Assembly: GCA_963812945.1 (NCBI GenBank)
Contig: CAWEXD010000008.1
Coordinates: 2,046,001-2,110,000, forward strand
Length of the DNA: 64,000 bases
Direction: 5' to 3'
DNA from: DASRDR01 sp963812945 [NCBI: uncultured Candidatus Rokubacteria bacterium]
GTDB taxonomy: Bacteria > Methylomirabilota > Methylomirabilia > Rokubacteriales
Part shown: positions 5,848-12,508 of the stretch, in pieces
Position numbering within the stretch: the first letter of the stretch is position 1
Layout: each line of letters begins with the position of its first letter
Program-made: the position numbers and the translations under genes
The notes under the pieces: model-generated
Told to the model about the DNA's origin: nothing
Database searches by the model: none
What the model saw: only the letters and a program-made list of their open reading frames with translations

Positions 5848-6669
5848 ATGCGATACCAGTGGCCAGACGGTCAGCAGTGCGCGGCGGTGCTCTCGTTCGA
5901 CTTCGACGCGGAGTCCGGGTTCCTCTTCCGGGAGCCGGAGAAGGCCAAGCGAAGCCTGGCCGGGCTCGAGGAGCGGCGCTTCGGCCCCCGCGTCGGCGTC
6001 GACCGCATCCTCCGGATGCTCGACCAGCTGCGGCTTCCGGCGACGTTCTTCATCCCGGGCTGGACCGTCGAGAACCACCGGCCGCAGGCGCTCCGCATCC
6101 GAGACGCCGGTCACGAGATCGGCGCCCACGGCAACGTCCACGAGGCGGTGGACGGCCTCGACGCGGCGCAGGAGGAAGCCGTGATGCGAGCGCAGCTCCG
6201 GATCCTCGCGGATCAGCTCGGCGTGCGTCCGGCCGGCTACCGGTCACCCTCCTGGGACGTGAACGTCCGGACCCCCGAGATCCTCAAGGCCCACGGCTTC
6301 CTCTACGACAGCTCGCTCATGGGCGACGACGTGCCGTACGAGATCGAGACCAGCCGCGGCCCCCTCGTCGAGGTGCCCGTCCAGTGGATCCTGGACGACG
6401 CGCCGCTCTTCCGGCACGTGTACGGCGCGACCAACGCCATCGCCGACCCGGCGCGGGTGTTCGACCTGTGGAGCCGCGAGTTCGCGGGAATCTACCGCGA
6501 GAACGGCTGCTTCGTCCTCACCTGCCATCCGTTCGTCATCGGGCGCGCCTCGCGAATCATGCTGCTGGAAGAGCTGGTCGGATTCATGCGCCGCTTCCCC
6601 GGCGTCTGGTTCACGACCGGGGTCGAGGTCGCGCGCTGGCACGAGAAGCAGAGGCAGGCCGCGCGCTGA
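5848..6669 (+). CDS. polysaccharide deacetylase-family hydrolase
   Basis: 273 residues, NodB-homology (carbohydrate esterase 4-like) fold. The metal-binding aspartate motif is FDFDAES near residue 17, the HxxxH-like motif is GAHGNVHEA near residues 92-100, and GYRSPSWD is the third conserved block. LTCHP near residue 232 supplies the late His. This variant subgroup, with SFDFDAE and no signal peptide, acts on non-peptide C-N bonds in the cytoplasm in several characterised relatives, so it need not act on cell wall. It follows the SDR gene by 9 bases. Confidence 0.8.
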   Translation: MRYQWPDGQQCAAVLSFDFDAESGFLFREPEKAKRSLAGLEERRFGPRVGVDRILRMLDQLRLPATFFIPGWTVENHRPQALRIRDAGHEIGAHGNVHEAVDGLDAAQEEAVMRAQLRILADQLGVRPAGYRSPSWDVNVRTPEILKAHGFLYDSSLMGDDVPYEIETSRGPLVEVPVQWILDDAPLFRHVYGATNAIADPARVFDLWSREFAGIYRENGCFVLTCHPFVIGRASRIMLLEELVGFMRRFPGVWFTTGVEVARWHEKQRQAAR

Positions 6670-6677
6670 GGCTTTCC

Positions 6678-6696
6678 GCCCGCGCGAGCCGCGGGC
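6678..6696. terminator. GC hairpin between convergent genes
   Basis: Stem GCCCGCG / CGCGGGC (7 bp) with loop CGAGC in the 37-base gap between the deacetylase and the radical SAM gene, which converge here. There is no U tract on either side, so it may only be a weak or Rho-assisted stop. Confidence 0.35.
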
Positions 6697-6706
6697 GCGC
6701 TGCGGC

Positions 6707-8920
6707 TCAGTCCTCGTCGGCCACGGCGCGGGCGACGGCCCGTCGGTACTGGCGGAAGTGGCGCCAGGCCTGGCGCAGAGGTCCGACCTGGGGCGCGCGC
6801 GGCCCGCGCGGCGCGGACCGGCCGCGGGGCCGCACCGCGGCCCAGCGGCCCAGGGCGCCGAGATAGCGCACGCGGGCGCCGAGCGAGTCGTGCAGCAGTA
6901 GGAGCAGCGCGTTCCGGCTGAGCGGGTCGAGCTCCCCGGTCCGCTCCACGACGCGGAAGAGCCGGTGCCCGGCCACCGTCTCGAGGTCGCGCTCGAGCGC
7001 GTCGCGCGGCGCCTGGCGCAGGAAGTCGGCGGGAAGCGGGAGGTCCAGCTCGCGGGCCAGCACCGCCGCCGGCACCCAGAAGCCCCGCGGCGCCCGCATC
7101 GCTCCGACCCACCGCGCCAGCCGATCCCAGTCGACCCCGGGTTCGGCCCGCAGGATCGCGAGGACGTCCCACGCGGCCCGGAGCCCGTGCGAGAAGCAGC
7201 TCTGCGAGCAGTGGACCAGCGCGTGGAGGAGGAGGCCCTCCGCGTCGAGCGTCCCGAAGCCGTCAGCCAGCCGCAGCGGCCGAGCCCGGGCGAGCATCTC
7301 GGCCTCGGGCAGCCGCCAGAACGGCGCCGCGATCCGGGTGTGGATCTCGACGGAGATGCCCTGGAGCACGACCGGCGCCAGGTGGTGCGGGGACGTGGGT
7401 CGCCCGTCCGGATCGCCGTGAAAGCCGAGCTCGAGGAGGCACCGCCGCAGAGCGGGTCCCTGCCCCGGGCCGACGTAGACATCGACGTCACCGGTCGCCC
7501 GGAACGGGACGGCGCTCCCCTGCTCTCGCGCCCGGAGCTGGAGGGCCATGCCCTTCAGGAGGACGCCCCGCGCGCCGATCTCCCGCAGGCCGATGCCGAC
7601 CTGCCGCAGCACCTCCTGCTGGACCAGCCCGACGATGCCGTCCCGCACGGCGGTGGCCCGGAGGGCCTCCGTGAAGAACGCCGGCGCCCAGCGGCGCAGC
7701 TCGGCGTCGTCCAGCGCGGGCAGGAGCGGCCGGCCCAGCCCGCACGCCTCGAGGTACGACGCCCAGCGCTTCCAGTCGACGTCCGGTCGCGCGAGGATCC
7801 AGGCCGCCTCGTCGGTCCACCGTGCCCCGGGCTCCGCGGCGGCCCGGAGAAAGACGCGGCCGGCCCCGGCTCCGTTGATGCGGCCCGGATTGAGCGCTCC
7901 TCGCCGCCGGCTGTCCTGGATCACGAGCCACGCGGCTCGTCGCTCCGCCGCGAGTCCGGGATCGTCGAGCCGCGCCCGGAGGGCCGCGACGGCCGCCGAA
8001 TCGGAGGTGATGTGGAGGCACAGATCGCAGATGCCCAGATATCGAGCCCGGAACGGGAAGCGCTCGAACCCGGGGAGGGCCCGCAGCTCGTCCCGGAGGC
8101 GGGCCGGCCCGAACGTGCGAATCGTGTCGAGGATCGGATCCCGGCGATGGCGCTCCAGCAGGGCCGCGAGCGGCTCCGTCCGGAGCGATCCGACGATCAG
8201 GGGTGACGACGCCGGAGCGAAGTAGGCGGGCCCGTTGCACGCCGTCAGACGGCCGTCGTCGGTCACGGCCGGCGCGGCGCACGCCGAGCAGAACCCGTCG
8301 ACCGCGCCGGCCATCGTGTCGGCCGGCAGGCCGCGTGCCCGGCCAACGGCCTGGAGCCCGTAGAATCGGAGCCGCGTCCCGGGAAGGCCCTCGAACGGCG
8401 CGACCAGCGGGGCCAGCCCGTCCTCCCCGGTGGGCCCGGTGGGCCCGGCGGGCACGACCAGGCTGATCCGCACCGGCAGACCGACCTCCTCGGCGGCGCG
8501 GGCGATCGACAGCGCAGGCGCCGGCCCCTGGAACTCGTCGTGGTAGCGGTCGACGCTGACAGCCACCGAGCCGAGGCCGGCCCGCCGGAGAGCCCGGACG
8601 CCGTGTCGCGCCCGGGCGGTGGTGCGCCCCCAGGATCCGTTCGTCGTGAGCGTCGTCGCGACGCCGAGCCGGCGGGCCTCCCGGATGAGCCGCAGGACCG
8701 TCCGGGGGCGCAGCATGGGCTCCCCACCCGTCAGGTTGATCGAGCGGACCTCGGCCGCCGCCGCCTGGCGGACCTGGTCGAGGAGCTCCTTCTCGCTCGG
8801 CTCGTTGCGGACGTCGGGCCCGCTCTCCACGCTGCAGTGGCCGCACCGCATGTTGCAGCGCCGCGTCACCATGAGCGCCATGGTGATGGCCGGGGGCGGC
8901 GTCCCGACCCGCATGCTCAT
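6707..8920 (-). CDS. radical SAM / nucleotidyltransferase fusion protein
   Basis: 737 residues. Residues 22-29 are CNMRCGHC, the CxxxCxxC motif for the [4Fe-4S]-SAM cluster, followed by a GGEP motif (LTGGEPMLRP, about residue 64). Further cysteines (FCSAC...LTAC near 245-260 and ICDLC near 335) look like a SPASM/Twitch auxiliary-cluster region. From about residue 470 the protein carries a NTP_transf_5-like nucleotidyltransferase (LLKGMALQLR, then ATGDVDVYV). ATG 8920 overlaps the kinase-like stop (ATGA). It is the last gene of the peptide operon and the probable modifying enzyme. The fusion is unusual; in most clusters these are separate genes. Confidence 0.8.
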   Translation of the reverse strand: MSMRVGTPPPAITMALMVTRRCNMRCGHCSVESGPDVRNEPSEKELLDQVRQAAAAEVRSINLTGGEPMLRPRTVLRLIREARRLGVATTLTTNGSWGRTTARARHGVRALRRAGLGSVAVSVDRYHDEFQGPAPALSIARAAEEVGLPVRISLVVPAGPTGPTGEDGLAPLVAPFEGLPGTRLRFYGLQAVGRARGLPADTMAGAVDGFCSACAAPAVTDDGRLTACNGPAYFAPASSPLIVGSLRTEPLAALLERHRRDPILDTIRTFGPARLRDELRALPGFERFPFRARYLGICDLCLHITSDSAAVAALRARLDDPGLAAERRAAWLVIQDSRRRGALNPGRINGAGAGRVFLRAAAEPGARWTDEAAWILARPDVDWKRWASYLEACGLGRPLLPALDDAELRRWAPAFFTEALRATAVRDGIVGLVQQEVLRQVGIGLREIGARGVLLKGMALQLRAREQGSAVPFRATGDVDVYVGPGQGPALRRCLLELGFHGDPDGRPTSPHHLAPVVLQGISVEIHTRIAAPFWRLPEAEMLARARPLRLADGFGTLDAEGLLLHALVHCSQSCFSHGLRAAWDVLAILRAEPGVDWDRLARWVGAMRAPRGFWVPAAVLARELDLPLPADFLRQAPRDALERDLETVAGHRLFRVVERTGELDPLSRNALLLLLHDSLGARVRYLGALGRWAAVRPRGRSAPRGPRAPQVGPLRQAWRHFRQYRRAVARAVADED

Positions 8921-9798
8921 GTCGGCAGAGCGGCGCCCGCGAGCCCTTCGACGGCGGCCGCCATCTCGGCGAGCGGTCCGCGGCCAAGATCGAAGGCCGG
9001 AACCCGGTCGGCAAGCGGCGCGAGCCTCCGGATGGCCTCCCCGAGCGACGTCCCGGCGCGCAGGTTCGTGTAAGGCAGGAGGGCCATCAGCGCGTGCGCG
9101 GGCGCGAGCGGTTCGGGGCGCGCCGATGCGGACGCGCCGCCGCGCCGGGTGAGGAAGACGATCGCCGCGAGCCGCGCCGACGCCGGTCGCGGGCGAGGCT
9201 CGATCTCCTCGGGGTGGAACAGGCACGCGTCGGCCCGCGCGACGCTGGACGGCCCTTGGAGAATCCGGGCGAAGAGGGACTCGCCGAGGAGCTCGCGGCT
9301 CGCCGACCTCAGGGACACGCGCCGCGGCGCGGGCCGCGCGTCGCCCGACGCAGGGTCCAGGAGGGTGACGTCGTCACCCAGCAGCGCGGCCCCCCGGGTC
9401 CAGAGCGCGCAGGCGAGCGTCGACTTCCCGGCCTCCCCGCGCCCGACGAGCAGGATCCCTCGACCGTCCCGCGCCACCAGGGCCCCGTGCGCGATGACGC
9501 CCGGCGACTCCACGATCGCGTTGACCGCCGCGAACTCGACCGCGCCGACCGCGCGCTCCGGGCTCGAGACCCGCGTCTCGACGCCCACCGAGGATCGGAC
9601 GCGCCATTCGGGATCCGCCATCGTTCCGTTGACCCGATCGATCTGCCAGGACCGGGTCGACTCGCTCGCTTCCGTGGTCGCCCAGGGGCGGAAGACGGCC
9701 CTGGCCAGGGCCCGGACGGGGGGGTCGTCGCTCGTCAGCTCGAAGCGAAAGGGGCCCGCCGCCCAGCGCACGGACGGCTCGGCTGACGCCGCGGTCAC
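8917..9798 (-). CDS. HPr kinase-like P-loop protein
   Basis: 293 residues. It contains a Walker A loop GRGEAGKST (residues 119-127) and a following LLGDDVTLLD strand typical of HPr kinase/phosphorylase C-terminal domains. The HPr-binding and regulatory parts of true HprK are absent. Such proteins recur in RiPP clusters, and in some lasso-peptide systems the homologue phosphorylates a Ser at the peptide tail. The GTG start at 9798 overlaps the PqqD-like stop by four bases (GTGA), and its own stop overlaps the radical SAM start, so the three genes are translationally coupled. Confidence 0.8.
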   Translation of the reverse strand: MTAASAEPSVRWAAGPFRFELTSDDPPVRALARAVFRPWATTEASESTRSWQIDRVNGTMADPEWRVRSSVGVETRVSSPERAVGAVEFAAVNAIVESPGVIAHGALVARDGRGILLVGRGEAGKSTLACALWTRGAALLGDDVTLLDPASGDARPAPRRVSLRSASRELLGESLFARILQGPSSVARADACLFHPEEIEPRPRPASARLAAIVFLTRRGGASASARPEPLAPAHALMALLPYTNLRAGTSLGEAIRRLAPLADRVPAFDLGRGPLAEMAAAVEGLAGAALPT

Positions 9799-10079
9799 GC
9801 GGCCGTGACGAGCGCGCCGTGGCGGGTCAGCTCGTCGACGAACGCCGAGACATCCCGGAGCGCGTCTTCCTGGGCGAGCGCCGGGAAGCGCTGGCGCAGG
9901 GCGGCCGTCAGGTCCTCGGCGCTCGCCGGCGTGACGAGGCGCTCCCAGAGGTGGCTGCCGGTGGGGTTTAGGACGAGCGCGGTCCGGGACGTCCGGTGAT
10001 AGAGCACCACTCGGTCGCCCACGGTCGAGGCTTCCACCTGATCGGACCGCGCGAATGTCGACGCGATGGCTCCACTCAT
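9795..10079 (-). CDS. PqqD-family peptide chaperone (RRE)
   Basis: 94 residues, the size of PqqD and of RiPP recognition elements. Visible family features are the beta strands VGDRVVLYHRTSRTALVLNPTG, the SHLWERL turn (LNxxG..LWExL pattern), and the C-terminal helices DVSAFVDELTRHGALV. PqqD-type winged-helix proteins bind the leader part of a precursor peptide and present it to the modifying enzyme. The ATG at 10079 is chosen over a TTG two codons upstream. It lies 25 bases after the last small peptide and overlaps the kinase-like gene. Confidence 0.85.
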   Translation of the reverse strand: MSGAIASTFARSDQVEASTVGDRVVLYHRTSRTALVLNPTGSHLWERLVTPASAEDLTAALRQRFPALAQEDALRDVSAFVDELTRHGALVTAA

Positions 10080-10104
10080 GGCCAAGTCCGCGGTTCTCGA
10101 GGTG

Positions 10105-10287
10105 TCACGATCCCGAGGCGCGCCCCTCGAATGAAGGACGGCCTCTCCAGGTCAAACCGGTGAAGGCTCGATGATGCACCTCGCGCTCGAGCTCCGCCGG
10201 GGTCAGCACGCGTTCCACGCGTGGCGGGTCGTAGGCCGGCACCGGCAGCTCCCCGAGTCCCTCCGGCTCTCTGTCACTCCCATTCAT
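10105..10287 (-). CDS. candidate RiPP precursor peptide A, 60 aa, divergent tail
   Basis: Shares the family core: a short acidic N-terminus, then YDPPRVERVLTPAELEREV. After that it departs from its siblings, which read LYAG; this one runs HHRAFTG and a basic tail ending SFEGRASGS. The ATG at 10287 follows a GGGGGAG site. It is the copy nearest the PqqD-like gene. The tail could be a genuinely different core peptide or the product of decay; the clean ribosome-binding site favours expression. There are no cysteines, so thioether chemistry is unlikely. Confidence 0.65.
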   Translation of the reverse strand: MNGSDREPEGLGELPVPAYDPPRVERVLTPAELEREVHHRAFTGLTWRGRPSFEGRASGS

Positions 10288-10359
10288 CGTCGCTCCCCCA
10301 CCAGACTCCGCGCTCGCCGGATCAGCCTCCCTCGACCACGGTGAGTCCTCGCCCGGCTC

Positions 10360-10458
10360 CTACGTCGGTGTGCCAAGGAGGCCGGCGTAGAGCACCTCGA
10401 GCTCGGCCGGGGTCAGGACCCGCTCGATGCGATAGGTTCGCTCACTGACCTGGGCTGT
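10360..10458 (-). pseudogene. start-less fifth copy of the precursor peptide
   Basis: Reading toward lower coordinates, this frame gives RIERVLTPAELEVLYAG, then LLGTPT and a TAG stop. It lacks the Arg-Glu pair found in the other copies (a 6-base deletion) and has no ATG, GTG or TTG between the upstream in-frame stop at 10459 and the core. Its 5' part overlaps the last five codons of peptide B. It looks like a truncated duplicate; initiation at a CTG inside the core cannot be excluded. Confidence 0.6.
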
Positions 10459-10582
10459 CTACGCCAGCGTACAGGATCTCGCGCTCGAGCTCGGCCGGGG
10501 TCAGCACATGCTCCACCCGTGGCGGCTCGTAGCCCGGCTGGTCCGGCCGCTCGTCGTGATCGCTTTGGTTCTCGTCTCTCAT
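10442..10582 (-). CDS. candidate RiPP precursor peptide B, 46 aa
   Basis: Too short for ordinary gene calls but has a good GGGAGGG site before the ATG at 10582. The N-terminus is acidic and hydrophilic (MRDENQSDHDERPDQPG), followed by YEPPRVEHVLTPAELEREIL, then YAG and the tail VDSPGQ. The LTPAELERE helix is the likely recognition segment for the PqqD-like protein, and the residues from Tyr on are the likely core (inference). The shared Tyr with preceding Glu is reminiscent of the Glu/Tyr pair in PqqA. The tail contains one Ser, a possible kinase target. Confidence 0.72.
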   Translation of the reverse strand: MRDENQSDHDERPDQPGYEPPRVEHVLTPAELEREILYAGVDSPGQ

Positions 10583-10657
10583 TGCACCCTCCCGGTGAAT
10601 CGGTCCGTTGTCAGGTCAAGGCGCACCGTCACGCGGTGCTCGCCGCAGCGACTACGT

Positions 10658-10804
10658 TCAAACGTCGGAAGGCACCGCGCCGGCGTACAGGATCTCGCGC
10701 TCGAGCTCCGCCGGGGTCAGCACTCGCTCCACGCGCGGCGCCTGGTAGTCGGGTCGTGCTGGCTGCTCCTGCTCGATCACCTCGCGCTGTTCCTGGTCAG
10801 CCAT
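10658..10804 (-). CDS. candidate RiPP precursor peptide C, 48 aa
   Basis: ATG at 10804 follows a GAGGAGG site. The N-terminus is Glu/Gln-rich (MADQEQREVIEQEQ), then YQAPRVERVLTPAELERE, ILYAG and the tail AVPSDV. At DNA level its 3' half is almost identical to that of peptide B over about 45 bases, whereas the N-terminal halves differ. This is the pattern expected of a precursor family with a conserved recognition/core segment and a free leader. No Cys or Trp is present. Confidence 0.72.
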   Translation of the reverse strand: MADQEQREVIEQEQPARPDYQAPRVERVLTPAELEREILYAGAVPSDV

Positions 10805-10843
10805 CGTGCCTCCTCTCGAGACATGTCGACGTCAGCAGCCCCG

Positions 10844-10975
10844 TCACGCGGAGACGCCCGCGTAGAGCACCTCGCGCTCGAGGTCCGCCGCCGTCACCAC
10901 CAGCTCCACCCGAGGCGGCTCGTAGGCGGCTGCCGGCTCGCGGCCACCCTTCACGCCGCTCCCCTGAGTGTCCAT
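10844..10975 (-). CDS. candidate RiPP precursor peptide D, 43 aa
   Basis: First gene of the peptide operon. ATG at 10975 with GGAG nine bases upstream. The sequence has a Gly-rich start (MDTQGSGVKGGREPAAA), then YEPPRVELVVTAADLERE, VLYAG and the very short tail VSA. It is the most divergent intact copy in the core (VVTAADLE for VLTPAELE) but keeps PPRVE, LERE and LYAG. A probable promoter lies 49-78 bases upstream. Confidence 0.7.
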   Translation of the reverse strand: MDTQGSGVKGGREPAAAYEPPRVELVVTAADLEREVLYAGVSA

Positions 10976-11023
10976 TCCACATCACTCCATCTGGCGCCGT
11001 TATCCAAGCATTTTCCGGGACGT

Positions 11024-11053
11024 ACCCTAGCATCGGCGCCGGCGCGGCGTCAA
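11024..11053 (-). promoter_or_regulatory. probable sigma-70 promoter of the peptide operon
   Basis: On the minus strand TTGACG (11053-11048) and TAGGGT (11029-11024) are separated by 18 bases. Initiation near 11016 would leave a leader of about 40 bases before peptide D. Confidence 0.4.
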
Positions 11054-11184
11054 ACAGTCACACACGAGTCACGACCGGAAGTGACGCGCGGCGGCCGCAA
11101 GGGCCTGGCGCGGGACGATCGTGGCCGTGTAGCATCGTGGCGGCCTGCCGGACCCGACGGGTCGGCCATGGCCAGGCGGCCTGG

Positions 11185-11649
11185 ATGCCGGACCCGGAGC
11201 GAGCCCTCGATCCGATCCACGCGGCCTCCGCGACGGCCGTCGAGGCATCACGCTACTGTCTCGGGTCGCGCCGCGCTGATCTGCTCGCGACCGGGGTCTT
11301 GGCACTCCTGGTCCTGGCCGGCTCACCCTTCGTGTGCGTGTACCACCGCATCACGCTGCTGGACGTGAGCGTCGTGAGCATCGCGCCGGACGGCCGGCGG
11401 ACCGCCATGCCGGTCCCTCCATCCCTCGGACACCGCCGCGCTCGCCCCTGGGCCGTGCAGCAAGGGCCAGCGGCAGCAGTCCGGGCGCTGGAAGCTCGGA
11501 TTCGTCGGCTGACGCGCGCCGAGCCCGCCATGGCGACCGCCCCGCCCGGAACGCGCTTCGAGTGGACCATCCGCTATTCCGAGAACAGCACGCGGCTCGA
11601 CCGAACGGCGGTGTACCTGTCTTCCCTGCCGGCTGATGGCGCGCGCTGA
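11185..11649 (+). CDS. small membrane-anchored protein paired with HTTM
   Basis: 154 residues, ATG at 11185. One hydrophobic segment (LLATGVLALLVLAGSPFVCVY, about residues 33-53) would anchor it, leaving about 100 residues outside. The soluble part has a beta-like segment (TLLDVSVVSIAPDGRR) and ends FEWTIRYSENSTRLDRTAVYLSSL. Its 3' end overlaps the HTTM gene by 14 bases, so the two are probably made together. It is divergent from the peptide operon. I do not recognise the family. Confidence 0.6.
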   Translation: MPDPERALDPIHAASATAVEASRYCLGSRRADLLATGVLALLVLAGSPFVCVYHRITLLDVSVVSIAPDGRRTAMPVPPSLGHRRARPWAVQQGPAAAVRALEARIRRLTRAEPAMATAPPGTRFEWTIRYSENSTRLDRTAVYLSSLPADGAR

Positions 11650-12508
11650 GCGGTCGGGCCGGGATGGCTGGATCGCCCGCACCCTGTTCACCCCGGTCGA
11701 TCCGCTCGCCGCCGCCCTCTTCCGCATCGCACTCGCGGGCATGGTCGTTGTCGTCTTCTGGCCGCTCCGGTGGCCGCTCCCCGAGCTCGTCGAGGCCAAT
11801 CCGGTTCTGAGGAGCCTCTACGGCAACGTCTTCCTGACCGGCGGTTACTGGACGGCCGTCGTGACGGCGGCCGCGCTGCTCGCCCTGGGCGTGCGGCCTC
11901 GGCTCACCGGAGCCGCGCTGGCCGGCCTGCTGCTTCCGCTGGTGCCGTTCGAGGGAAGACAGCCCGGGCGTCAGGTGCTCGCAGTGACGGTGCTGGCCTT
12001 CTCGTTCCTCAGGAGCGACGCGGCGCTCGCCGTCACCTGGGACCGGCGGACCGCGGCCGTGCCCGTCGGCCCGTACTGGCCGATCCGGATCGTGCAGCTC
12101 CAGCTCTCGGTCCTCTATGCGGCCAACGCGATCGCCAAGACGACCCCGGACTACCTGAGCGGCCAGACCCTCGCGACGATGATGCAGGCGCTGCCCAACT
12201 TTCTGGTTCGTCCATCGGACGGGCACATCGCCCTGGGCGGCCTCTCGATCCCGCTCTGGCTCGCCGCGACGGCAGTCGTGCTCACGGAATACGCGCTGGC
12301 CGTCGGCTTCTGGTTCCGGCGAACCCGCGTGGCGACGGCCGCGCTCGGGGTCGCGTTTCACGCGGTCATGCGCTACGTCGTCCGGATCGGCTTCCTGGAC
12401 GTCGTGGCGCTGCTGCTGTACATGGCGTTCCTGCTGCCCTTCGACCGACGCCCCGCCCAGACGGCGCCGGAGGTCGGCGCCGCGCATCCTGGCGCGCGGA
12501 GCGACTGA
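11636..12508 (+). CDS. HTTM-domain integral membrane protein
   Basis: 290 residues with about seven hydrophobic segments. The opening (LFTPVDPLAAALFRIALAGMVV), the WPLRWPLPEL loop, RIVQLQLSVLYAANAIAK and GVAFHAVMRYVV match the HTTM family, the membrane domain related to vitamin K-dependent gamma-glutamyl carboxylase. In bacteria HTTM proteins are found beside peptide and redox genes, and few have a known reaction. It overlaps its small partner and diverges from the candidate RiPP operon, so a role in modifying or exporting the peptides is possible but unproven. Confidence 0.75.
   Translation: MARAERSGRDGWIARTLFTPVDPLAAALFRIALAGMVVVVFWPLRWPLPELVEANPVLRSLYGNVFLTGGYWTAVVTAAALLALGVRPRLTGAALAGLLLPLVPFEGRQPGRQVLAVTVLAFSFLRSDAALAVTWDRRTAAVPVGPYWPIRIVQLQLSVLYAANAIAKTTPDYLSGQTLATMMQALPNFLVRPSDGHIALGGLSIPLWLAATAVVLTEYALAVGFWFRRTRVATAALGVAFHAVMRYVVRIGFLDVVALLLYMAFLLPFDRRPAQTAPEVGAAHPGARSD

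Follow-up and report, generated by a model that had tools for sequence, protein, structure and literature searches.

A putative RiPP operon with tandem short peptides and an EpeE-like radical SAM domain fused to a nucleotidyltransferase in a Rokubacteriales genome

In a 64,000-nucleotide stretch of the genome of an uncultured Candidatus Rokubacteria bacterium (DASRDR01 sp963812945, contig CAWEXD010000008.1, positions 2,046,001 to 2,110,000; hereafter the window, in whose coordinates all positions are given), a minus-strand locus carries tandem small peptides followed by genes for a PqqD-like protein, an HPr-kinase-like protein and a fusion of a radical S-adenosylmethionine (SAM) domain with an NTP_transf_5 nucleotidyltransferase domain. 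We favour, with moderate confidence, the reading that this is an operon for a ribosomally synthesized and post-translationally modified peptide (RiPP), in which the tandem peptides would be precursors tailored by the PqqD-like protein, the kinase, the nucleotidyltransferase and the radical SAM domain. Predicted fold and cluster cysteines group the radical SAM domain with EpeE/YydG, but it lacks the residue that defines the epimerase and cannot be filed as one. All the components are of familiar types; it is their combination that was not found in the limited set of other genomes searched. The locus reads as follows in the order of transcription.

10844-10975, minus strand: P1, putative precursor peptide of 43 amino acids ending in YEPPRVELVVTAADLEREVLYAGVSA (open reading frame (ORF), translation, profile match)
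10658-10804, minus strand: P2, putative precursor peptide of 48 amino acids ending in YQAPRVERVLTPAELEREILYAGAVPSDV (ORF, translation, profile match)
10442-10582, minus strand: P3, putative precursor peptide of 46 amino acids ending in YEPPRVEHVLTPAELEREILYAGVDSPGQ (ORF, translation, profile match)
about 10360-10458, minus strand: P4, decayed copy without a start (translation; profile match of 27.9 bits)
10105-10287, minus strand: P5, putative precursor peptide of 60 amino acids (ORF, translation, profile match)
9795-10085, minus strand: PqqD-like protein (putative RiPP recognition element), 96 amino acids from TTG or 94 from ATG (Pfam PF05402, E 3e-13)
8917-9798, minus strand: HPr-kinase-like protein, 293 amino acids (NCBIfam TIGR04352, 65.5 bits, cut-off 200; Pfam PF07475, 27.5 bits, cut-off 33.3)
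7900-8920, minus strand: radical SAM domain of the fusion, EpeE/YydG-like (Pfam, NCBIfam, profile, Foldseek, tree)
6707-7900, minus strand: C-terminal part of the 737-amino-acid fusion, with the NTP_transf_5 domain at residues about 380-610 (Pfam PF14907, E 1.1e-20)

An earlier note, made from the sequence alone, had described four intact small peptides and one broken copy with a common motif, all of which are present at the coordinates above. Its claim of a ribosome-binding site for each intact peptide also holds by eye: the sites are good at P2 (AGGAGG), P3 (GGGAGG) and P5 (GGGGGAG), and there is a weaker GGAG at P1. From the stop at 10459-10461 down to its motif, P4 has no ATG, GTG or TTG in frame; it shares one reading frame with P5 (10105-10458), with a single TAG stop between them. 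The enzyme genes are coupled as had been proposed, with 4-base overlaps between PqqD and kinase and between kinase and fusion gene (6707-8920); the TTG start of the PqqD gene has an ATG two codons downstream. Gene content and a GC content of 71% would fit a Rokubacteria-like soil bacterium, and in a search of 62 genomes the HscA protein was 42-53% identical to the matches listed. Scans of 6500-11700 found no promoter or terminator, and Rfam and tRNA scans gave no match.

The peptides P1, P2, P3 and P5 have in common the block YxxPRVExV(L/V)T(P/A)A(E/D)LERE. Two copies depart from the stricter motif first reported, PPRVE-x-VLTPAELERE: P1 has VVTAADLERE in place of the VLTPAELE of the other copies, and P4 retains VLTPAELE and LYAG and is missing its N-terminal part, PPRV and ERE. 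LYAG occurs in most copies, as claimed: (I/V)LYAG follows the block in P1-P3 and VLYAG comes directly after LE in P4, with only 3-6 residues behind it (VSA, AVPSDV, VDSPGQ and LLGTPT in P1 to P4). P5 diverges past ERE, with HHRA instead of LYAG and then a tail of about 19 residues. The four intact peptides contain no cysteine, in agreement with the earlier observation, and so lack the precursor cysteine expected of sactipeptides and ranthipeptides. Each tail of P1-P3 has a serine within it, for which the chance, calculated post hoc, is 0.8%.

These repeats are more than chance. Profiles built from any three of the four intact peptides, run against the six-frame translation of the window, recovered the held-out peptide with 45-62 bits and the broken copy with 26-30 bits; there was no further match at E values up to 10. 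The small ORFs also look translated, judging from their codons. In the shared 20-codon block the ratio of non-synonymous to synonymous differences (pN/pS) is 0.44; neutral simulations average 1.18, and 0.9% of 3000 gave a value this low. The 25 differences from the consensus fall on codon positions 1, 2 and 3 in the proportion 6/3/16. One reverse frame gives a similar pN/pS, 0.48, because its silent positions coincide with forward third positions; it is the forward frame that holds the ORFs preceded by ribosome-binding sites.

The domain assignments of the earlier note are right; the PqqD, Radical_SAM and NTP_transf_5 domains exceed their Pfam cut-offs, and the kinase stays below its own. The NCBIfam matches of the PqqD-like protein are to the lasso PqqD (best), ScmD, PqqD_rel_X and two more, none above its cut-off, and its three PDB matches (TbiB1, a PqqD family protein and TfuB1) are weak (E 0.02-0.8). 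The kinase has kept a P-loop, GRGEAGKS, at residue 119 and LLGDD at residue 139; its nearest family is HprK-related kinase A (TIGR04352), with 48% identity over 73 amino acids to the Sphingomonas member. In the NTP_transf_5 domain the LLKG motif and GDVD, which contains the DxD of this family, are kept, with the motif at residue 477. Among the PADLOC models, the fusion matches three for viperin through its radical SAM core only, and the three other proteins match none.

The radical SAM domain has the cluster motif CxxxCxxC (C22/C26/C29) and, at auxiliary-cluster positions, C211, C228, C298 and C301. These four are invariant in the 8 rows of an alignment of the window domain with seven relatives, and 26 distant radical SAM rows are without the first of them. 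The best NCBIfam match is YydG (TIGR04078), at 69.3 bits for the fusion and 72.6 for the domain against a cut-off of 300; it covers residues 15-314 and is the only one of the 25 best families listed that spans the domain. When a profile of the domain and its seven relatives (24-28% identity) was compared with the PDB, only EpeE/YydG chains were found at E ≤ 1e-10 (best 1.8e-40), a result that says more about the family than about the window protein itself, as 7 of the 8 profile rows are relatives. Taken singly, the window domain matches MoaA (4.4e-10) and PqqE (2.6e-8) about as well as EpeE (3.4e-8), over its first 200 residues or fewer. EpeE chains are the nine best Foldseek matches of the domain model (E 3e-12, TM about 0.6), a model with a mean confidence (pLDDT) of 61.6 in which 144 of 340 residues, including 186-215 and 261-340, are below 50. 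A 48-row tree groups the window domain with 21 EpeE-like rows, apart from 26 other radical SAM rows, with support of 100/100.

Cys223 of EpeE is described, in PMC8326336 and PMC5682303, as the hydrogen-atom donor of epimerization, and its mutation as leading to breakage of the peptide (PMC8326336). The window domain has Asn229 (codon AAC, 8234-8236) at this position: Cys222-Cys223 of EpeE aligns with Cys228-Asn229, and the structures of EpeE C223A have Cys-Ala at the aligned place. A cysteine occupies the Cys223 column in all 21 alignable relatives; these come from 23 profile hits in the fetched loci, 2 of which could not be aligned there and were dropped, and 7 of the 21 had built the profile. 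The window domain branches outside all 21 of these cysteine-bearing rows (87/85), in a tree where its branch is long and meets that of the outgroup, its composition is unlike the rest and EpeE itself is not included. As the 26 distant radical SAM rows have Thr (24), Leu or Gln in this column, the asparagine need not be a loss. A loss of the cysteine is therefore not claimed here; the tree placement and the outgroup residues fit either a loss or a cysteine that was never gained. An additional cysteine, Cys214, gives a CX2CX13C arrangement with a spacing also present in the aligned stretch of MoaA.

The combination of components was not found elsewhere within the limited set of other genomes searched. 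Candidate relatives retrieved from the genome collection by exact patterns (48 loci) were all rejected as distant radical SAM proteins, the best of 37% identity; this search used six short patterns with matches within residues 1-208, so a missing close relative proves little. The fusion protein had no match at E ≤ 1e-14 in 74 genomes of one group (G009), a search without a positive control. In a second group (G002), 168 of 193 genomes have NTP_transf_5 matches. At 12 such places with open frames of 537-1316 amino acids, the nucleotidyltransferase motif was seen in 8, and no frame of at least 400 amino acids holds CxxxCxxC, which is a weak test in a single group.

Among known systems, the gene order PqqD, HPr-kinase-like and nucleotidyltransferase, with adjacent genes, is that of HPr-rel-A clusters (TIGR04353, TIGR04352), annotated as PqqD_rel_X, HprK_rel_A and nucleotidyltransferase on a Sphingomonas parapaucimobilis plasmid. 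That cluster, the one we looked at, has no radical SAM gene within 6 kb, and its small upstream gene encodes a protein of 161 amino acids that appears, by eye, to carry a signal sequence and has no Pfam hit, whereas the window has tandem peptides of 43-60 amino acids at this place; the window kinase reaches 65.5 of 200 bits (TIGR04352) and the PqqD-like protein 27.1 of 35 (TIGR04353). From gene order and domain content, the locus looks like an HPr-rel-A triad supplemented by a radical SAM domain and equipped with short precursors. EpeE/YydG (TIGR04078; PDB 8ai1-8ai6) resembles the window domain in fold, CxxxCxxC and auxiliary-cluster cysteine positions, and differs in that the window domain has asparagine at the Cys223 position, is fused to NTP_transf_5 and is below the family cut-off. 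The SynChlorMet cassette (ScmC, ScmD, ScmE and ScmF) also brings together kinase-like, PqqD-like and radical SAM proteins. In the window, the ScmC and ScmD models reach 26.7 of 125 and 28.3 of 100 bits, and neither ScmE nor ScmF appears in the 25 best families listed for the radical SAM protein.

The closest experimental precedents for the kinase come from phosphorylated and phosphoglycosylated lasso peptides (paeninodin, pseudomycoidin and Bradymonas BsfA), which have an HPr-kinase homologue, a nucleotidyltransferase and a PqqD-type B1 protein. According to PMC10368454, the Bradymonas kinase BsfK phosphorylates the precursor, at Ser3 of the core and not at the C terminus, B1 accelerates the reaction and the leader motif is YxxPxL. 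According to PMC8498205, an HPr kinase homologue phosphorylates the C-terminal serine and a nucleotidyltransferase adds hexoses to the phosphorylated peptide. By analogy, a kinase-plus-PqqD step has experimental precedent in Bradymonas, and the kinase-nucleotidyltransferase pair in pseudomycoidin. Nucleotidyltransferases fused to the lasso B2 protein are also noted there (PMC8498205), so there is precedent for joining this domain to a maturation enzyme. The block of all four intact peptides starts with YxxPRV, which fits YxxPx[LV] but has valine where the YxxPxL leader motif has leucine. The window differs from the lasso clusters in having a radical SAM domain, only 3-6 residues after LYAG in P1-P4 and no B2 or C gene nearby. 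The earlier statement that the lasso B2 protease and cyclase are absent is thus borne out among the Pfam-scanned genes at 864-21586. The conclusion drawn then, that the locus matches no class that can be named, is fair, although the HPr-rel-A gene order and the structurally solved relative EpeE make it less isolated than it seemed.

PqqD and radical SAM genes recur near small YxxP peptides in four other loci (L059, L060, L063 and L125), one of which (L125) also has an HPr-kinase-like gene, and this supports the precursor reading without proving it. Three of these, from the G002 group (L059, L060 and L063), have an EpeE-like gene, a PqqD gene above the Pfam cut-off, a protein of about 2300 amino acids and a YxxP peptide; two further loci of that group (L061 and L062) have a similar peptide, and PqqD was not sought there. 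In L125 (4678-7595), a peptide with YVTPRI, ending in YVTPRIVTYTSEEILEQIGPAQACSPSPCGIN, precedes a 462-amino-acid PqqD, radical SAM and SPASM protein, whose PqqD and radical SAM domains exceed the Pfam cut-offs, and then a kinase matching HprK_rel_A at 60.4 bits of 200. The likeness of this peptide to the window profile is suggestive (12.8 bits; 1 of 5000 shuffles higher, 4935 of them reported), for a locus picked by eye. In the G006 group, EpeE-like genes are present in 12 of 297 genomes (E ≤ 1e-25); no clear YxxP peptide was seen in the 10 of these loci listed by ORF, and the one neighbour checked for PqqD (in L104) was negative. HprK_rel_A was found in 3 of 12 genomes with EpeE-like genes at E ≤ 1e-5, none above the cut-off.

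Some of these loci are of interest in themselves. The five small peptides of L059 (11004-11183), L060 (11548-11694), L061 (7194-7352), L062 (3086-3235) and L063 (within 8615-8854) begin with YxxPx(V/L/I), have tails of the YGPxRxxPRR or GPEREAPRR type and lie near EpeE-like genes with the Cys-Cys pair. They were selected by eye among the listed hits of a motif scan, in which chance ORFs were numerous, and look like a RiPP-type family that we cannot name. L100 (5711-8711) has three tandem EpeE-like radical SAM genes, each with a Cys-Cys pair. On a Klebsiella sp. plasmid (L082, 3859-10927), an EpeE-like gene lies beside SdpI-family, methyltransferase, toxin-activating acyltransferase, HlyD and peptidase-domain ATP-binding cassette (ABC) transporter genes in what resembles a bacteriocin cluster. 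L127 (5406-6605) has a small lasso-leader-like peptide (NF033528, 21.4 bits of 33; NF033521, 17.6 of 19) beside an HPr-kinase-like gene. Within the window, a divergent pair on the plus strand (11185-12508) encodes two proteins, the first of 154 amino acids with what appears to be a single membrane segment, the second with an HTTM domain (PF05090, E 7.7e-9); an SdpA/SdpB identity for this pair was rejected for want of any NCBIfam hit at E ≤ 10.

Several observations weigh against the RiPP operon. P5 is without LYAG, and no tail of P1-P3 ends in serine, the site of the lasso kinases in PMC8498205. In none of their NCBIfam matches does the kinase or the PqqD-like protein reach the cut-off. The placement of the radical SAM domain outside the 21 cysteine-bearing rows, and the Thr, Leu or Gln of the distant rows, also count here. 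No protease or peptide exporter was recognized at 864-21586, where the only transporters are a major facilitator superfamily (MFS) protein and an ABC pair whose permease is of the importer type. Finally, no homologue of the peptides was found outside the window in the G002, G005 and G006 groups, plasmids and viral contigs, a set that does not include the window's own lineage, which leaves position and pattern as the grounds for calling them precursors; their absence from the searched groups neither supports nor refutes the precursor claim.

In the family databases, no Pfam family matched the peptides below E 0.09, and P1, P2, P3 and P5 matched no NCBIfam family at E ≤ 1, lasso precursor and leader models included. 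Weak matches of the peptide profile in genomes were rejected as chance because their scores are far below those of the held-out peptides. They comprise 12 of 195 genomes of the G002 group (E ≤ 0.05, best 19.5 bits), 4 of 395 of the G006 group (E ≤ 0.02, best 19.1 bits) and 2 of 247 of the G005 group, both already among the G006 matches, the genomes listed for these last two groups being largely the same. All 16 places in the G002 and G006 groups are inside open frames of 181-1212 amino acids, and the 11 whose alignments were listed score 12-18 bits, compared with 45-62 for a held-out window peptide. The search of plasmids with P2 returned a single record, at E 5, and none of 59 pattern matches in viral contigs was confirmed by the profile.

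Alternative explanations account for parts of this evidence. If the locus were epipeptide-like, the radical SAM domain would be an epimerase that uses another hydrogen donor, such as the extra Cys214, and places D-residues in or near LYAG; the relationship to EpeE extends across the whole domain, with TIGR04078 as best NCBIfam hit over residues 15-314. The asparagine at a position that is cysteine in 21 of 21 alignable relatives, and a score of 72.6 bits against 300, make this unlikely, and we lowered our estimate further because the domain branches outside those 21 rows (87/85). That the small ORFs are not precursors at all, being a duplicated regulatory or structural small protein upstream of the enzymes by chance, would fit a family with no homologue found, one copy decayed and another diverged. 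We consider this improbable given the coding constraint and ribosome-binding sites, the position directly before the PqqD gene, and a YxxP start like those of lasso leaders and of the peptides that accompany PqqD and radical SAM genes in other loci.

Equally improbable is a remnant or dispersed lasso cluster in which the PqqD-like protein would serve as B1 and the kinase and nucleotidyltransferase as lasso tailoring enzymes, with B2 and C elsewhere in the genome. The best NCBIfam hit of the PqqD-like protein, the YxxPx[LV] start of the block and the known occurrence of both tailoring genes in lasso clusters speak for it; against it, the four peptides have no NCBIfam hit, no protease or cyclase is among the Pfam-scanned genes at 864-21586, and the 3-6 residues that follow LYAG in P1-P4 seem too few for a lasso peptide. 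A redox cofactor of the pyrroloquinoline quinone (PQQ) or mycofactocin kind, derived from the tyrosine of LYAG, would explain a PqqD and a radical SAM protein beside several short precursors with tyrosine near the C terminus (P1-P4). It is likewise improbable, as the models for PqqE (39.5 of 381.35 bits), PqqD (21.1 of 46) and the mycofactocin maturase (32.7 of 265) are all far below cut-off, the tails are variable, P5 is without that tyrosine, and we know of no role for the kinase and nucleotidyltransferase in those pathways.

The precursor interpretation offered in the earlier note thus remains the best reading, supported in part by the repeats, the coding signal and the neighbouring enzymes. 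We hypothesize that, in such a RiPP operon, the PqqD-like protein would bind the YxxPRVE leader and present each peptide, and that the kinase would phosphorylate a serine of the short tail. Onto that phosphate the nucleotidyltransferase domain could then transfer a sugar or nucleotidyl group, a step reported for pseudomycoidin; abstraction of a hydrogen atom by the radical SAM domain may take place within or close to the LYAG core. With asparagine in place of the cysteine that completes epimerization in EpeE, the radical is probably resolved in another way, by cross-linking, oxidation, cleavage or a hydrogen atom from Cys214, and the product is probably no plain D-residue. Since the two domains are fused, the radical step and the nucleotidyl step may well act on the same bound peptide; the protease and exporter may be encoded elsewhere. 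More tentatively, and at a confidence that we keep low, the locus may represent a RiPP class in which an EpeE-type domain without the hydrogen-donor cysteine carries out another radical reaction on LYAG and the fused nucleotidyltransferase, after a PqqD-assisted kinase, adds a phosphate-linked group to the tail.

If true, a single product would have both a radical-made and a phosphate-linked modification. We did not find these two lines of tailoring together in the open-access literature, where other spellings may hide papers. The RiPP operon proposed here, if right, would join radical SAM tailoring with HPr-kinase/nucleotidyltransferase tailoring, with one PqqD protein guiding both, and a natural EpeE relative with asparagine in place of the catalytic cysteine would offer a direct test of the role of this residue in epimerization as opposed to other radical outcomes.

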